Below, one piece after another: positions 11,976-46,676 of a DNA stretch of 64,000 bases (positions are counted from its first letter, which is position 1; every line of letters starts with the position of its first letter). The stretch lies in the NCBI RefSeq assembly GCF_027359925.1, contig NZ_CP114767.1:1488001-1552000 (forward strand), written 5' to 3'. The stretch comes from Hymenobacter canadensis. Lineage in GTDB: Bacteria > Bacteroidota > Bacteroidia > Cytophagales > Hymenobacteraceae. The position numbers and the translations under genes were made by a program. A model generated the notes under the pieces. That model was not told the origin of the DNA, searched no databases, and saw only the letters and a list, made by a program, of their open reading frames with translations.

Positions 11976-12088
11976 AGAACGATGTAGAGACGCAATACTT
12001 TGCGTCTCGTCGTTGCTGACGTTGCTTGATCTGCGCAATACCGGCCGTTCAACGACGAGACGCAAAATATTGCGTCTCTACATCGTTT
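11976..12088. repeat. REPIN-like inverted pair, family A
   Basis: 113 bp, bounded AGAACGATGTAGAG...CTCTACATCGTTT; two palindromes of the AT-looped type (GCAATACTTTGC, GCAAAATATTGC). It is the cleanest full-length copy in the window together with 156-269. Confidence 0.9.
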
Positions 12089-14360: not shown

Positions 14361-14599
14361 GGTGTAGAGAGGCGTATTCGCGCCGCGTCGTTGAATGGCT
14401 GGAAACGCGCTACGATAATCAGAACGTCATGCTGAACCTGCCAAAGCATCTCGCGTGCTGATGTTGCAGGAGTAATCCGGCGTCAGCACGCGAGATGCTT
14501 CGGCAAGCTCAGCATGACGTTCTTTTACACTTCAGCCGACTTCTGCAAGCTGCTTCAACGTCAGCAACGACGAGACGCAAAATATTACGTCTCTACATC
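14361..14599. repeat. Family A arms enclosing a family B element
   Basis: The left A arm (14361-14401) is degenerate (GAGAGGCG...CGCCGCGTC); the right A arm (14554-14599) is intact. A complete family B pair sits between them, the same nesting as at 2758-2993. Confidence 0.75.
14420..14523. repeat. Family B inverted pair
   Basis: AGAACGTCATGCTGAAC...AAGCATCTCGCGTGCTG and the inverse CAGCACGCGAGATGCTTCGG...CATGACGTTCT. The centre differs from other B copies (CTCGCGTGCTG in place of CTACCGCTTCG) but is still self-complementary. Confidence 0.85.
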
Positions 14600-26899: not shown

Positions 26900-26904
26900 T
26901 TCGC

Positions 26905-27057
26905 CTCACCCCCCAGCCCCCTCTCCTTCAGAGAGGGAGAGCCGGACGATGCCTTGAGCCTGTTTTGGCGGCTTCCTCCGATTCTTCAAAAAACGCGCAT
27001 CCGCCGAGCCGCCGTGGCTCCCCCTCTCTGAAGGAGAGGGGGCCGGGGGGTGAGGCA
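26905..27057. repeat. Family F inverted repeat
   Basis: CCTCACCCCCCAGCCCCCTC...AGAGAGGG and its inverse ...AGAGGGGG...GGGGGGTGAGG, about 150 bp end to end, between permease and ATPase genes. A second copy lies inside ispG (45644-45757). Confidence 0.88.
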
Positions 27058-27070
27058 AACTACTCCCCCC

Positions 27071-27901
27071 ATGACTCCCTACTCCTACAAATCCCCCGTC
27101 CTCACCCTCGACAATGTGTCGCTGACGCTGAATGGGGAAACCATTCTGCGCGATATTTCGGCGCAGGTGCTGGATGTGTGCCGGCCGGGCATGAGCCAGG
27201 GCCAGGTGGTGGGCTTCTACGGCCGCTCGGGCATGGGTAAGTCTGTCCTGTGCCGGCTGATGGCGGGGCTGCTGGCCCCCAGCAGCGGCACCGTGCTGGT
27301 GGGCGAGGCCCAGCAGCTGGCCACGCCCGGCGCGGTGGGCTTCGTGCAACAGCACTACCCGCTGTTCAACCACCGCACCCTTCTCGATAACCTACTGGTG
27401 GCCGCCGCCCGCCGCTACCCCGACCCCGCCGAGGCCCGCCGCCAGGCCGAAGCCTACCTGGAGCGGTTCCAGCTCACGGCCCACCGCACCAAATACCCGG
27501 CCCACCTCTCGGGCGGCCAGCGCCAGCGCGCCGCCATTGCCCAGCAGCTGCTCTGCTCCGACCACCTCATCCTCCTCGACGAGCCCTTCTCCGGCCTCGA
27601 CGTGGCCATGCTCGACGAGGTGCGCAAAATCATCCTCGAAGTCACCACCCTCGACGAGCTCAACACCGTGGTCATCGTCTCCCACGACTTGGCCACCACC
27701 ACCGCCCTCTCCGACCGGCTCTGGCTGCTAGGCCAGGAGCGCGACGCCGCGGGCCAGCTGCTACCCGGCGCCACCATCAGCCCCCAGCACCAGTACAACC
27801 TCGCCGAAATGGGCCTCGCCTGGCACGAAAACGTGGAAGCCGAACCGGAGTTCGTCCGGTTTGTGGAGCATCTGAAGGAGGAGATTCGGCAGAGTGCGTA
27901 G
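27071..27901 (+). CDS. ABC transporter ATP-binding protein
   Basis: A 276-residue ATPase of the nitrate/sulfonate importer type. Walker A is GRSGMGKS (after GQVVGFY), the signature is LSGGQRQR, Walker B is HLILLDEP and the H-loop is VSHD. The first 35 residues place the strand VLTLDNVSLTLNGETILRD before an inserted piece LDVCRPGMSQG that is less usual. It should energise the preceding permease. ATG 27071 lies right after the family F repeat. The last codons run to TAG at 27899-27901, next to a family A arm. Confidence 0.92.
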   Translation: MTPYSYKSPVLTLDNVSLTLNGETILRDISAQVLDVCRPGMSQGQVVGFYGRSGMGKSVLCRLMAGLLAPSSGTVLVGEAQQLATPGAVGFVQQHYPLFNHRTLLDNLLVAAARRYPDPAEARRQAEAYLERFQLTAHRTKYPAHLSGGQRQRAAIAQQLLCSDHLILLDEPFSGLDVAMLDEVRKIILEVTTLDELNTVVIVSHDLATTTALSDRLWLLGQERDAAGQLLPGATISPQHQYNLAEMGLAWHENVEAEPEFVRFVEHLKEEIRQSA

Positions 27902-27902
27902 C

Positions 27903-28100
27903 AGAACGATTGTAGAGACACGACACTTCGCGTCTCCCCGCTGAACAACCAAAACCACCGATGCAACCGCAGAACGATGTAGAGACGCGACACTTCGCGT
28001 CTCCTCATTGAACGACTGGAATACAACAGTTACCTTGAATGGCCGCTAACTGTATTCGTTCCAACGCTGAGACGCGAAGTGTCGCGTCTCTACATCGTTC
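27903..28100. repeat. Three family A palindromes upstream of the RAYT
   Basis: A single arm (27903-27946) and an inverted pair (27971-28100, AGAACGATGTAGAG...CTCTACATCGTTC). All have the GACACTTC or GAAGTGTC loop type, the same as the copy inside the RAYT gene. Confidence 0.9.
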
Positions 28101-28106
28101 AGGAGG

Positions 28107-28691
28107 ATGGATGAACCGCTATTACACGACCAATACCGCATTCCATCCAACCGTTTGCCGGGTTATAACTACGGGCAAAGCGGAGCTTATTTTGTCACGA
28201 TTTGCACGCATCAGCGCCAACCCTATTTTGGCACTATAGAAGTTCCAAGAAACGATTGGGACGCCGCATTTTTACGGCCCACGCCTTTGGGGGTAAAGGC
28301 GTCGGAATACTGGGACGCCATTCCACAGTTTGCGCCATTTGTGCGGCTGGATGCGTTTGTATTGATGCCGGACCACCTGCACGGGGTATTGCTGTTCGAC
28401 AAGGACGAACCTGATGGCGCGGACGAGGAGACGCGAAGTGTCGCGTCTCTACTGGCCTACGAAAACCGGTTTGGGCCACAGTCGCGCAACCTAGCTTCTG
28501 TGTTGCGCGGGTTTAAATCGGCGGTTACCACGTACGCGCGCCATCACCAGCTGACTTTTCAATGGCAGGCCCGGTTTCATGACCGGGTGGTACGCAGCGA
28601 AGCCGAACTGGAGAAAATCCGCTCGTATATCGTCACCAATCCAACCCGTTGGGCAAAGGAATACGACAACGGCGAAGGCCTATATCGTTGA
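28107..28691 (+). CDS. REP-associated tyrosine transposase (RAYT, IS200/IS605-like Y1 HUH)
   Basis: A 194-residue single-strand transposase. YGQSGAYFVTICTHQRQPYFG is the typical RAYT opening, LMPDHLHGVLLF carries the HUH pair (H90 and H92), and IRSYIVTNPTRW supplies the presumed nucleophilic Y174. Conserved middle part: NLASVLRGFKSAVTTYAR and FHDRVVRSEAELEKI. RAYTs are single-copy transposases thought to mobilise REP/REPIN palindromes. This one is bracketed by family A palindromes on both sides, and residues about 105-116 (ADEETRSVASLL) are encoded by an in-frame family A palindrome at 28422-28452, in the variable loop between HUH and the next conserved block. The start is inferred from family length. 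Confidence 0.9.
   Translation: MDEPLLHDQYRIPSNRLPGYNYGQSGAYFVTICTHQRQPYFGTIEVPRNDWDAAFLRPTPLGVKASEYWDAIPQFAPFVRLDAFVLMPDHLHGVLLFDKDEPDGADEETRSVASLLAYENRFGPQSRNLASVLRGFKSAVTTYARHHQLTFQWQARFHDRVVRSEAELEKIRSYIVTNPTRWAKEYDNGEGLYR
28422..28452. repeat. Family A palindrome inside the RAYT coding sequence
   Basis: Core GAGACGCG...CGCGTCTC at 28428-28449 with the right-arm flank TCTAC, in the same orientation as the right arms at 28060-28100 and 28770-28815. It keeps the reading frame and adds no stop. Confidence 0.9.
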
Positions 28692-28815
28692 ACAGTTGTA
28701 GAGACGCGACACTTTGCGTCTCGTCGTGCGCGCCGCTCGGGCAATGTGGCAGGCACGAAATCAGATAAAACAACATCAGCAACGACGAGACGCGAAGTGT
28801 CGCGTCTCTACATTT
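28689..28815. repeat. REPIN-like inverted pair, family A
   Basis: GTTGAACAGTTGTAGAGACG... and ...CGCGTCTCTACATTTG. The RAYT stop TGA (28689-28691) lies in the first flanking bases. Confidence 0.88.
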
Positions 28816-28845
28816 GCGCAATTCTCAGATCTTACCCCTCCCCCA

Positions 28846-30204
28846 ATGCCCACCGGTACCCTGCTCCTGATTGATGATGAACCGCGCCTGCGGCAGCTGT
28901 TGGCGCGGGTGTTGGAGCTGGAAGGCTACACCGTACTGCAGGCCCCCGATGCCAGCCGCGGCCTGGAGCTGCTCCAGCAGCACGCCCGCGAGGTGCTGGT
29001 GGTCATTTCCGACGTGAAGCTGCCCGACGGCCACGGCGTGGACCTGATGCCGCGCTACCGCGCCAAGGCCCCCGACTGCGAAATTGTGCTGCTCACCGCC
29101 TTCGGCACCATCCCCGACGGCGTGCGGGCCATGAAGCAGGGCGCCTTCGACTACCTCACCAAGGGCGACTACGAGCAGCAGCTGGTGGTGGTGGTGGAGC
29201 GCGCCGCCGAAAAAGCCCGTCTGCGCCACCGCGTGGCCGAGTTGGAGCGGCGCATGAGCCAGCGGTTCAGCTTCGAGAGCATGATTGGTACGGCCCCGGC
29301 CCTGCGCCGCGCCCAGGACCTGGCCCGCCAGGTAGCCCCCACCGACAGCACCGTGCTGCTGGAAGGCCCCACCGGCGCGGGTAAGGAGCTGTTTGCCCAG
29401 GCCCTGCACGAGGCCAGTGAGCGGAAAGCCAAGTCGTTTGTGGCCGTGAACTGCTCGGCCTTCCCCAAGGATTTGCTGGAATCGGAGCTGTTTGGCTACA
29501 AGAAGGGTGCGTTTACGGGCGCGCTGGCCGATAAGAAGGGACTGCTGGAGGAAGCCAGCGGCGGCACGCTGTTTCTGGACGAAATCGGGGAGCTGGAGCT
29601 GAACGTGCAGGCCAAGTTCCTGCGGGTGCTGGAGACGCGGCAGTTCACCAAGCTCGGCGACACCAAGCCCACCAGCGTAAACGTGCGCATTGTGGCCGCC
29701 ACCAACCGCAACCTCAAGCAGGAAGCCGCCGAGGGCCGCTTCCGCCCCGACCTCTACTACCGCCTCTCCGTCTTCACCCTCCACGTGCCCAGCCTGCGCG
29801 ACCGGGCCGCCGACGTGCCGGCCCTGGCTGCCCACTTTCTGCAGCACTTCGCGGCCCAGCTGCGCAAGCGCCTGCCGGGCCTGGAGCCCGAGTGCGTGGA
29901 GCTGCTGCAGCGCTACGAGTGGCCCGGCAACGTGCGCGAGCTGAAAAACGTGCTGGAGCGCGCCGCCATCCTGGCCCCCGCCGACCAGCCCCTCTCCGCC
30001 GGCTACCTCCCCGACGAGTTCCACACCCTGCCCGCCCCCCTCAGCCCCGACGCCGACCCCGCCGACCAGAGCCTGCGCGCCGTGGAAGCCCGCCACATCC
30101 GCCAGGTGCTGCACCAGTGCCAAGGCAACAAAACCGAAGCCGCCCGCCGCCTCGGCATCGGCCTGACGACGCTGTATAGGAAAGTGCAGGAGTACGAGTT
30201 GTAG
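28846..30204 (+). CDS. NtrC-family sigma-54-dependent response regulator
   Basis: A 452-residue regulator. The receiver domain (residues about 5-120) has the acidic pocket IDDE and the phospho-acceptor D56 (ISDVKLPDG). The AAA+ domain has Walker A GPTGAGKE, the sigma-54 contact loop GAFTGA (about 221), Walker B GGTLFLDEIGEL and the R-finger region RFRPDLYYRLSVF. The C terminus is a Fis-type HTH (NKTEAARRLGIGLTTLYRKVQEY). It should drive sigma-54 promoters when phosphorylated by the kinase encoded just downstream. The ATG at 28846 follows the family A repeat pair. The target genes are unknown. Confidence 0.95.
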   Translation: MPTGTLLLIDDEPRLRQLLARVLELEGYTVLQAPDASRGLELLQQHAREVLVVISDVKLPDGHGVDLMPRYRAKAPDCEIVLLTAFGTIPDGVRAMKQGAFDYLTKGDYEQQLVVVVERAAEKARLRHRVAELERRMSQRFSFESMIGTAPALRRAQDLARQVAPTDSTVLLEGPTGAGKELFAQALHEASERKAKSFVAVNCSAFPKDLLESELFGYKKGAFTGALADKKGLLEEASGGTLFLDEIGELELNVQAKFLRVLETRQFTKLGDTKPTSVNVRIVAATNRNLKQEAAEGRFRPDLYYRLSVFTLHVPSLRDRAADVPALAAHFLQHFAAQLRKRLPGLEPECVELLQRYEWPGNVRELKNVLERAAILAPADQPLSAGYLPDEFHTLPAPLSPDADPADQSLRAVEARHIRQVLHQCQGNKTEAARRLGIGLTTLYRKVQEYEL

Positions 30205-33955: not shown

Positions 33956-34203
33956 CACGATGTAGAGACGCGTATTCGCGTCTCGTCGTTGAATGACCCG
34001 GCACCGCACCGCCCCAACCACGTCAGTACGATTGTAGAGACGCAATATTTTGCGTCTCGTCGTTGAACGACCCGGCACCGCGCCCCCCAATTAACACGAT
34101 GTAGAGACGCGACCCTTCGCGTCTCTACATTGAACGACCCGGAACCGCACCGTTCATCAAACAACGTCAGCAACGACGAGACGCGAATACGCGTCTCTAC
34201 ACT
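33956..34203. repeat. Cluster of four family A palindromes
   Basis: Palindromes at about 33964-33984, 34035-34056, 34103-34125 and 34179-34200, with four different loops (GTATTC, AATATTTT, GACCCTTC, GAATAC). Together with the family E palindrome they fill the 484-bp gap between the DUF389 and leuS starts; the leuS promoter must lie in the last about 90 bases. Confidence 0.9.
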
Positions 34204-43134: not shown

Positions 43135-43325
43135 CGGTGTAGAGACGCAATATTTTGCGTCTCCCCGTTGAACGGCCGGAACCGTACCGCCAGGCAAACA
43201 ACATCAGCAATGAGGAGACGCGAAGTGTCGCGTCTCTACATCGTGCGCTTCATCGTTGAACGGCCGGAATTTCTCCAGGTAAACAACATCAGCAACGATG
43301 AGACGCAAGATATTGCGTCTCTACC
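43135..43325. repeat. Three family A palindromes
   Basis: An AT-looped copy (GCAATATTTTGC), then two right-arm-type copies. The last ends TCTCTACC and contains the stop codon of the minus-strand NAD(P)-binding gene. Confidence 0.88.
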
Positions 43326-44579: not shown

Positions 44580-46676
44580 CTACCCCGCCACCGGCTCTTC
44601 CAGCAGCTCCTTTTCCATCCAGCGGCCGTCTTCGCGCATGAGGTCGATGAGCTGGTCCACGGCTTGTTCTTCGGGCACCGATTTCTTGATGACTTCCTGG
44701 CCGCGGTAGAGGGCAATTTTGCCTTTACCCACGCCCACGTAGCCGTAGTCGGCATCGGCCATTTCGCCGGGACCGTTCACGATGCAGCCCATGATGCCGA
44801 TTTTCACGCCCTTCAGGTGGTCGGTGCGCTTGCGGATCATGGCGGTGGTTTCCTGCAGGTCGAACAGAGTACGGCCGCAGCTGGGGCAGCTGATGTACTC
44901 CGTCTTGCTCATGCGCGTGCGGGCCGCCTGCAGGATGCCGAAGCTGAGCTGGTTGAGTTGGTCAATGTCGCGCAACCAAGCTTCCTGGCCTTGCTCAGGT
45001 AGTAGGTCAGTGCACAGCGAGATACCGTCGCCGAGGCCGTCGATTAGCAAGCCACCTACGTCGGTAGCCGCGTCGAGTTGAGTTTGGGAAGGGCTTTCCA
45101 GCGTGTAGGTACGGCGCACTACCACGGGGCAGGTAACACCGTTGTTGATCAGCTCGAAGAATGCCCGCCGCAACTCGGGCATGGCGTGGGCATTGGTGGT
45201 TTCGAGCACCAGTACCACCGTGCGGTCCTGGCGAAGCTGGGCCAGCAGGTCCGCATCGAGCGTGCTGAGTTCCAGTAGCAGGAAGTTGAGCGTGGGGTGC
45301 AGCTTGGGGAAGTTGCTCAGATAGGTGTCGGCTGTGAGCAGCGGGAAATGGTCGGAGCGCTGGCCGGCATCCATCCAGGCGCGGTGCGCTACCACTTCCT
45401 TCAGGCCGTTGGGTAGCATAAATGGTACCGGCCGCTCGCCGGTGTACACGTAGTCGGCACCCAGGTCGCTCATCTGAAACTTATCCAGAAACGACGAATA
45501 CAAGTGCCCGGCCGCCCGCAAATCGGCGTATTCCAGGCGCGGCAGACGCGAGAGGTCGGCTACTACCCGCGGCACGTTCTGCCCCCCAAAGTTGGCTACC
45601 TCGTGCGTGTGGCGGCGGTGATACTGGAAGGGGTCGATGGGCACCTCACTCCCTAGCCCCCTCTCCTCAGGAGAGGAGGAACTAGCGTCTAGCTTTTTAG
45701 AATCAGTTTCTAAAGCTAGTTTCCCCTCTCCTGAGGAGAGGGGGCTAGGGGGTGAGGTCAACGGCCGAATGGGCCGCGCCTCCTGCGCCCGGTTGGTGTA
45801 CCGGTCAATCAGCGCTTTGGCCACCGGAGCTTCGGCTTCGGGGGCTTCGGTGAGGCTCACGCGCACGGTGTCGCCGAGGCCGTCTTCGAGCAGCGTGCCG
45901 ATGCCGACGGCGCTCTTGATGCGGCCGTCTTCGGCTTCGCCGGCTTCCGTCACGCCCAGGTGCAGCGGGTAGGGCTGCAGGCCTTCGGTGTCGAGTTTCT
46001 GCACCAGCAGGCGGTAGGCCTGCACCATCACCTGGGTGTTGCTGGCCTTCATGCTCAGCACCACATCGTAGTAGTTTTCCTCCTCGCAGAGGCGCAGGAA
46101 TTCCAGCGCCGACTCCACCATACCCAATGGCGTATCGCCGTAACGGCTCAGAATCCGGTCCGAAAGGGAGCCGTGGTTGGTGCCGATGCGCATGGCCGTG
46201 CCGTACTGCTTGCAGATCTGGACCAGCGGACGGAACCGCTCCCGGATGCGCTCCACCTCGGCGGCGTAGCTGCTGTCGGTGTACTCAATGACGTCGAATT
46301 TCTTCTTGTCGGCGTAGTTGCCGGGGTTCACGCGCACTTTCTCCACGATGCGGGCGGCCAGCTCGGCGGCGTTGGGCGTGAAATGGATGTCGGCAATGAG
46401 CGGCACGGTGCAGCCCCGCTTGCGCAGCTCCTTCTTGATTTCGAGCAGGTTCTGGGCCTCCTTCACGCTGGGGGCCGTGATGCGCACGTACTCGCACCCG
46501 GCTTCCACCATGCGCAGCGTCTGCTCCACCGAGCCCAGCGTGTCCATGGTGTCCACGGTGGTCATGCTCTGCACCCGAATGGGGTTGAGCCCGCCCATCG
46601 GCAGGTCGCCGATTTTCACTTCGCGGGAGATGCGGCGCTTGTATTCGGTGAGGCTGGGGCAATACGTCTTGTTCAT
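44580..46676 (-). CDS. ispG: 4-hydroxy-3-methylbut-2-en-1-yl diphosphate synthase (three-domain type)
   Basis: A 698-residue IspG (GcpE), the [4Fe-4S] enzyme of the MEP isoprenoid pathway that makes HMBPP from MEcPP. The TIM barrel (residues 1-295; VKIGDLPMGGLNPIRVQSMTTVDT, ADIHFTPNAAELAARIVEKVRVNPGNYADKKK) is followed by the extra A* domain of Bacteroidota/plant-type enzymes, and the C-terminal Fe-S domain with CPSCGRTLF and GIMGCIVNGPGEMADADYGYVG. Length is within the long type. Residues about 307-344 are encoded by a 114-bp family F repeat in frame, at the barrel/A* junction. ATG 46676 fits. The gene is probably essential, so the insertion must be tolerated. Confidence 0.95.
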   Translation of the reverse strand: MNKTYCPSLTEYKRRISREVKIGDLPMGGLNPIRVQSMTTVDTMDTLGSVEQTLRMVEAGCEYVRITAPSVKEAQNLLEIKKELRKRGCTVPLIADIHFTPNAAELAARIVEKVRVNPGNYADKKKFDVIEYTDSSYAAEVERIRERFRPLVQICKQYGTAMRIGTNHGSLSDRILSRYGDTPLGMVESALEFLRLCEEENYYDVVLSMKASNTQVMVQAYRLLVQKLDTEGLQPYPLHLGVTEAGEAEDGRIKSAVGIGTLLEDGLGDTVRVSLTEAPEAEAPVAKALIDRYTNRAQEARPIRPLTSPPSPLSSGEGKLALETDSKKLDASSSSPEERGLGSEVPIDPFQYHRRHTHEVANFGGQNVPRVVADLSRLPRLEYADLRAAGHLYSSFLDKFQMSDLGADYVYTGERPVPFMLPNGLKEVVAHRAWMDAGQRSDHFPLLTADTYLSNFPKLHPTLNFLLLELSTLDADLLAQLRQDRTVVLVLETTNAHAMPELRRAFFELINNGVTCPVVVRRTYTLESPSQTQLDAATDVGGLLIDGLGDGISLCTDLLPEQGQEAWLRDIDQLNQLSFGILQAARTRMSKTEYISCPSCGRTLFDLQETTAMIRKRTDHLKGVKIGIMGCIVNGPGEMADADYGYVGVGKGKIALYRGQEVIKKSVPEEQAVDQLIDLMREDGRWMEKELLEEPVAG
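45644..45757. repeat. Family F inverted repeat inside ispG
   Basis: CCTCACTCCCTAGCCCCCTC...GAGAGG with its inverse, 114 bp (38 codons), in frame. The encoded minus-strand peptide begins TSPPSPLSSGEG and ends SPEERGLGSEV. The same family lies at 26905-27057 in a non-coding gap. Confidence 0.92.

Follow-up and report, generated by a model that had tools for sequence, protein, structure and literature searches.

Why would a transposase gene carry, within its own reading frame, a copy of the repeat that surrounds it? The question is raised by the gene for a REP-associated tyrosine transposase (RAYT) in a 64,000-nucleotide stretch of the Hymenobacter canadensis genome (NZ_CP114767.1, positions 1,488,001 to 1,552,000), referred to here as the window, whose numbering is used below. 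A first-pass annotation had described a 194-residue RAYT flanked by at least five family A palindromes, with a sixth lying in frame between the HUH motif and the next conserved block. This description was borne out: the open reading frame occupies 28107-28691 (+), core matches begin at 27912, 27979, 28069, 28698 and 28787 on either side of it, and an exact core lies inside it at 28428-28452. The features of the locus are listed below.

27050..27901, plus strand: left neighbour ORF, marking the shared locus (relatives adjoin the RAYT in L036-L040)
27912..27936, plus strand: lone flanking family A REP, one mismatch (core match)
27979..28093, no strand: upstream REPIN, core matches at 27979-28003 (+) and 28069-28093 (-)
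28107..28691, plus strand: RAYT/TnpAREP-like HUH tyrosine transposase (ORF, 194 aa)
28374..28382, plus strand: HUH motif H90-L-H92, both histidines being the same in every one of the 64 sequences in alignment A2
28395..28469, plus strand: variable loop of low model confidence (pLDDT), approximately residues 97-121, holding the insert
28422..28427, no strand: GACGAG at the left edge of the insert, similar to the inner side of the genome's other REPs, which is often ACGAC
28428..28452, minus strand: internal family A REP (exact match), encoding ETRSVASL in frame, with its GTAG foot on the minus strand
28626..28628, plus strand: presumed catalytic tyrosine Y174, conserved without exception across the 64 sequences in alignment A2
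28698..28811, no strand: downstream REPIN, core matches at 28698-28722 (+, one mismatch) and 28787-28811 (-)
28714..30204, plus strand: right neighbour ORF, marking the shared locus (relatives adjoin the RAYT in L036-L040)

From its sequence motifs we take the left neighbour to be presumably an ABC-type ATPase; the right neighbour is presumably a response regulator with a sigma-54-type ATPase domain, and its true start is probably downstream of 28714.

The RAYT is matched by the NCBIfam model NF047646 (REP_Tyr_transpos; E 1.1e-15) with 57.7 bits, under the 80-bit cut-off of that model, and by no Pfam family at E <= 1. The curated cut-off is not a biological feature, and we read the shortfall as likely divergence because the other RAYT/TnpAREP features tested hold. 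The protein appears to have an HUH motif and a single presumed catalytic tyrosine, the role of Y174 being presumed from the family; alignment A2 comprises 64 sequences picked by us out of 120 listed homologues, and two homologues outside it (P0023 and P0062) have a tyrosine in the HUH motif. An AlphaFold2 model built from 64 aligned sequences (mean pLDDT 85.3) had 4er8 as its best PDB match (E 2.6e-6, TM 0.50/0.58; first of 29 at E <= 0.001), which suggests a Y1 transposase fold nearest to TnpAREP. Mean pLDDT falls to 59 (residues 101-110) and 62 (residues 111-120) in the loop holding the insert, against 95 (residues 91-100) and 90 (residues 121-130) beside it. The gene is flanked by GTAG REPs that recur elsewhere in the genome, and it is the one RAYT match in the 5.09-Mb genome at E <= 0.001.

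Family A (core GTAGAGACGCGACACTTCGCGTCTC) is present as five copies around the RAYT gene and one exact copy within it. With up to three mismatches allowed, the core matches at 14 places in the window (0 in 100 shuffles) and at 57 in the 5.09-Mb genome (reversed control 0). These repeats have the hallmarks of GTAG REPs, namely a GTAG foot by a short hairpin (9-bp stem and 4-nt loop) and many genomic copies; the loop is CACT. Both flanking pairs consist of two inverted REPs and are thus REPINs, while the internal copy is single and forms none; its ACGAG left edge looks like a REPIN inner arm. Placed 3' of H90-L-H92 and 5' of the conserved block F122-G-P-Q, the internal REP reads in the gene as GAG ACG CGA AGT GTC GCG TCT CTA, or ETRSVASL (residues 108-115), which together with adjoining codons makes up the peptide ADEETRSVASLL of the first-pass annotation. 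It is predicted to fold as a DNA hairpin of -10.9 kcal/mol (z -5.03), and as RNA with a z of -2.66 (91 nt).

Other repeats also occur in the window. REPs of a second type, whose cores include CAATATTTTG, lie at 164-261, 11984-12081, 14572-14596, 34034-34058, 43139-43163 and 43300-43324; REPs of this type flank another RAYT group in L058-L060, and the sole matched RAYT of the present genome is the family A one. At 43139-43239, a REP of the CAATATTTTG type (+) and one of family A (-) may form a mixed REPIN. The repeat GGAGAGGGGGCCGGGGGGTGAGG and its variants (up to three mismatches) form two inverted pairs, at 26904-26926, 27033-27055, 45644-45666 and 45735-45757.

Conservation and loss of the internal repeat

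A REP locked in a coding gene allows its maintenance as DNA to be gauged against the synonymous sites of that gene. The RAYTs with both DNA and insert were five Hymenobacter genes (L031-L035), whose proteins are 66-85% identical. Nucleotide identity is 98.3% over the eight insert codons and 69.9% over the rest of the gene. At pairs with identical amino acids the codon differs in 4 of 80 cases within the insert and in 706 of 1288 outside it; all four differences trace to L035. The resulting fraction, 0.05, compares with a lowest value of 0.255 among the other 8-codon windows (157 tested, counted only with at least 40 amino-acid-identical pairs). Among amino-acid-invariant codons, 7 of 8 in the insert and 12 of 91 in the rest are identical in all five genes (Fisher p 2.4e-5), in a test that covers five genes only, all selected for having the insert.

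The REPs flanking the RAYT genes behave alike. Where a strict REPIN pattern was found, they are 100% and 99% identical and their spacers 52% and 45%; the pattern was found upstream in 6 and downstream in 6 of the ten loci L031-L040, the window's RAYT being among both. This comparison is softer because a REP must already agree at 15 of its 25 bases to show the pattern and because 4 of the 10 loci per side fail it, some visibly decayed and some with longer spacers, and are excluded from the identity figures. Taken together, the sequences suggest that the internal copy evolves as a REP and not as a stretch of protein.

The insert is not a constant part of the gene. In L036-L040 the RAYT lies between the same neighbours as in the window, and the insert is absent in all five; L032, L034 and L035 have another upstream neighbour in common, and L033 has none of these in the DNA examined. 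The L035 copy is decayed, with one stem base altered and the foot changed from CTAC to CTAG, and its stem variant with an intact GTAG foot is absent from all five carrier genomes. Altered insert peptides are seen in P0002, P0003 and P0011, which, like P0005, P0008 and P0013, are RAYTs of this group whose insert was read from the protein alone. When 55 proteins, 12 of them with the insert, are placed on a tree from which the loop is excluded, the distribution of the insert takes at least four changes, including the distant P0057 (shuffled mean 11.0); carriers are interspersed with non-carriers, and well-supported branches force only two changes. In all five carriers the distance from the insert to the right-hand block and the codon phase are constant. 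Moreover, L031 and L033 have 12 further bases in common left of the core, which favours shared descent of at least those two, and possible remnants of the insert can be discerned, by eye only, in the insert-less L037 and L038.

Hairpins in the loop of other RAYTs

A first scan of genome contigs with the single RAYT protein gave no confirmed locus; a second, using alignment A1, gave 80 loci out of 574 confirmed stretches. An open frame was obtained for 107 of 110 loci (L051, L065 and L070 were missed). Dropping three odd frames (L068, L087 and L098) and two duplicates (L075 and L080, which repeat L055 and L059 in the compared RAYT stretch) left 102, with both landmarks present in 97; an earlier version of the own-flank match count covered 94 loci. 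For the hairpin survey, 137 frames less 12 (the five just named, L151, and the duplicates L154, L158, L160-L162 and L167) gave 125, of which 121 contained the landmarks.

REP-type hairpins were found in the HUH loop at 61 of these 121 RAYT loci: 4 of 28 in L031-L060 and 57 of 93 elsewhere, one of those 93 loci (L085) being a further Hymenobacter locus. The other 24 of the 28 Hymenobacter loci, among them L035 with its decayed copy, have no loop REP hairpin. Elsewhere in the 121 genes, hairpins occur after the FG.I motif at nine loci, between the sites at one and by the C-terminus at one. They also occur before the first site at 23 loci, a count that, like the other counts of hairpins or matches "before" given here, includes upstream REPs read into over-long open frames, as in L031, and left unsorted. 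A count of perfect stems of at least 8, with no repeat motif required, gives 50 in the loop, 30 before it and 4 after it in 111 loci. The first-pass annotation had called an internal copy unusual; it is not, because half of the loci have a loop hairpin and such copies are described as predominant in TnpAREP subclass 2.4 in a published study (PMC6006769).

Many loop hairpins resemble the repeats beside their own gene. Exact matches to a gene's own flanks that are 16 nt or longer fall in the loop at 21, before it at 6 and after it at 1 of 97 RAYT loci; lowering the threshold to 12 nt weakens the excess in the loop (33, 24 and 18). Where the loop shares at least 15 nt with its own flank, that flank is the best match in 15 of 23 loci and is not in 8. 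In a test with a slightly looser hairpin filter, which gave 62 carriers and not 61, an 18-nt hairpin core from the loop (up to one mismatch) recurred in the gene's own flank in 24 carriers, where 2000 shuffled pairings gave 2.0 on average and 8 at most; the shuffled value is raised because L031-L034, which are among the carriers, share one core. For the remaining 38 loop hairpins, the up to ~1.5 kb of own flank examined per side contains no match. There are 37 distinct cores among the 62.

At the protein level, REP-like peptides stand at the loop in many of the 120 homologues listed (ETRSVASL, VETQDLASL, RDAMHGVST and others), and other lineages encode unrelated loop peptides such as RDAMHCVST and VETLHATSL. 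The loop of the L143 RAYT contains seven tandem copies of NIASLQ, a REP-like peptide unit. The idea that FG.I-site and HUH-loop insertions exclude one another, each RAYT needing one internal REP, was rejected (Fisher p 0.73): in the 93 loci outside L031-L060, 5 have both, 4 the FG.I site only, 52 the loop only and 32 neither.

The flanking repeats differ between RAYT groups. Their cores are CGACACTTCG near L031-L040, mostly CGACCC types near L041-L044, and CAATATTTTG or CAACATCTTG near L057-L060; no strict-pattern REP lies beside the RAYT in L045-L056. The first-pass annotation expected family A to follow this RAYT, and in part it does: the 34 of 120 genomes whose RAYT shows 46% identity or more carry more family A than the others (one-sided p 3.6e-5). 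Exceptions are many: 15 of the 72 genomes in which no RAYT was matched have at least 10 copies, and 8 of the 34 have none. A test did not show family A to depend strictly on this RAYT. It had also asked whether genomes without family A share the insert. All five insert-carrying genomes contain family A (17-64 copies at up to one mismatch), the insert state being read in 30 of the 48 RAYT-matched genomes from the best locus of each.

RAYT is not the only gene to contain the repeat. Of the 30 family A copies read in context in this genome, 6 are spanned by an open frame 120 residues long or longer. These frames are the RAYT, a P-type ATPase (L026; Pfam E1-E2_ATPase) and four others. The ATPase gene, which occurs also in L171, bears an in-frame REPIN (REP at G000:C1:1249853-1249877). 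Of 29 fetched orthologues, 9 had a loop at the REPIN site that could be matched by pattern; in these 9 it ranges from 14 to 68 residues and is REP-free. Because a loop of the ATPase also bears an in-frame insertion, tolerance is favoured over a role dedicated to the RAYT.

Origin and upkeep of the insert

In the account that we consider probable, the insert is a REP half-copy that a disordered loop tolerates and that is maintained in the same way as the flanking REPs, its peptide being a by-product. RAYT activity on single-stranded REP DNA, assumed here from the E. coli relative, would place or re-copy REPs preferentially near its own gene. The disordered loop between the HUH strand and the next helix would accommodate extra residues, and in-frame copies could survive there for that reason. 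An intact internal copy would then be held at the family master sequence on the DNA level, as the flanking REPs would be, its exactness being due either to re-copying, with other REPs as the source, or to selection for the hairpin, and it would decay or be lost once this upkeep fails. We infer that the RAYT made the insertion and that re-copying, not selection on the DNA, keeps the insert identical; frozen insert DNA can equally arise from selection on a DNA or RNA element.

Selection of that kind is central to the proposal that the internal REP is a control element, the RAYT binding or cutting the hairpin in its own gene or an mRNA hairpin slowing translation. The scarcity of synonymous changes in the insert, the stability of the hairpin as DNA (-10.9 kcal/mol) and RNA (z -2.66), and the recurrence of loop hairpins (61/121 loci, 37 distinct cores among 62) would all agree with it. 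However, same-locus relatives (L036-L040) lack the insert, 24 of the 28 Hymenobacter loci scanned have no loop REP hairpin (L035, with its decayed copy, included), the peptide is altered in P0002, P0003 and P0011, and flanking REPs that show the strict pattern are equally uniform, so the internal copy is not set apart; we regard such control as quite unlikely. A broader proposal, which we hold to be unlikely, makes the internal REP a working DNA element whose peptide is irrelevant: a seed or self-substrate keeping transposase and repeat matched, or a means by which the RAYT limits itself, with its exactness due to selection or to templated renewal from the genome's own REPs. If true, a built-in seed would preserve the match between transposase and repeat when the gene changes place or diverges.

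Separate, recent insertions of one REP at a preferred site, with no long-term maintenance, could explain why carriers are mixed with non-carriers over at least four changes among the 55 proteins, P0057 included, and why the loop is a hot spot for own-flank matches. Yet codon phase and spacing to the right-hand block are uniform in the five carriers, L031 and L033 share their 12 further bases, and L037 and L038 may retain remnants (by eye only), which makes this account doubtful. The first-pass annotation had offered three options, self-targeting, a linker under selection and a feedback hairpin. A useful peptide linker under selection at the protein level would account for the identity of ETRSVASL in the five genes compared with DNA, but it is disfavoured, and in our view highly improbable, because the synonymous sites of the insert hardly vary, in contrast to the rest of the gene, because the peptides encoded at the same place in other lineages (RDAMHCVST, VETLHATSL) are unrelated, and because same-locus RAYTs lack it; the loop is also one of low model confidence. 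Self-targeting would fit best of the three.

REPs in coding genes bear on how REPs spread and stay uniform. With more genomes, the synonymous-site test could tell re-copying from selection, for which intergenic REPs are less direct.

Relation to known systems

The best fold match of the modelled RAYT is to E. coli TnpAREP (4er8), an HUH/Tyr transposase bound to a REP hairpin. It differs in having 165 residues, against 194 here, and the two share 15% identity in the structural alignment, with a sequence match of E 0.82. Cleavage of REP DNA by the E. coli RAYT is cited in Di Nocera et al. 2013 (PMC3733652). Passages of that paper describe short GTAG-tagged palindromes in coding sequences, dimers included, much like those reported here; the host genes that these passages name are repair, replication and RNA genes, and they place none of the palindromes in a RAYT.

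An in-frame REP within a RAYT gene is a trait already described, because REPs are reported in subclass 2.4 genes themselves by Quentin et al. 2018 (PMC6006769) and within other genes by Di Nocera et al. What is new is that the insert is frozen as DNA relative to the synonymous sites of its own gene; among the titles and abstract openings listed by a literature search, none described a synonymous-site test of REP inserts in RAYTs.

According to Quentin et al. 2018, TnpAREP subclass 2.4, which they map to RAYT group 4 of Bertels et al., is abundant in Cyanobacteria and Bacteroidetes, and its genes themselves hold REPs, as a rule between HuH and Y and with the frame preserved, in a region that may have little impact on activity. 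The main text of that paper makes no mention of Hymenobacter. The window's RAYT differs from the consensus given there in having DHLH where subclass 2.4 has NH[IFV]H (its relatives have both N and D) and YIVTNP where the tyrosine consensus is YIxNNP. It is like subclass 2.4 in its Bacteroidetes host, in its length (the median of the subclass is 194), in its WQ motif, and in having GTAG REPs both flanking the gene and in frame between HuH and Y. On these sequence features we suggest a likeness to subclass 2.4 and claim no membership, and the best explanation of the locus is a RAYT/TnpAREP cassette like those of that subclass (RAYT group 4), with a half-copy of its cognate REP in its own gene.
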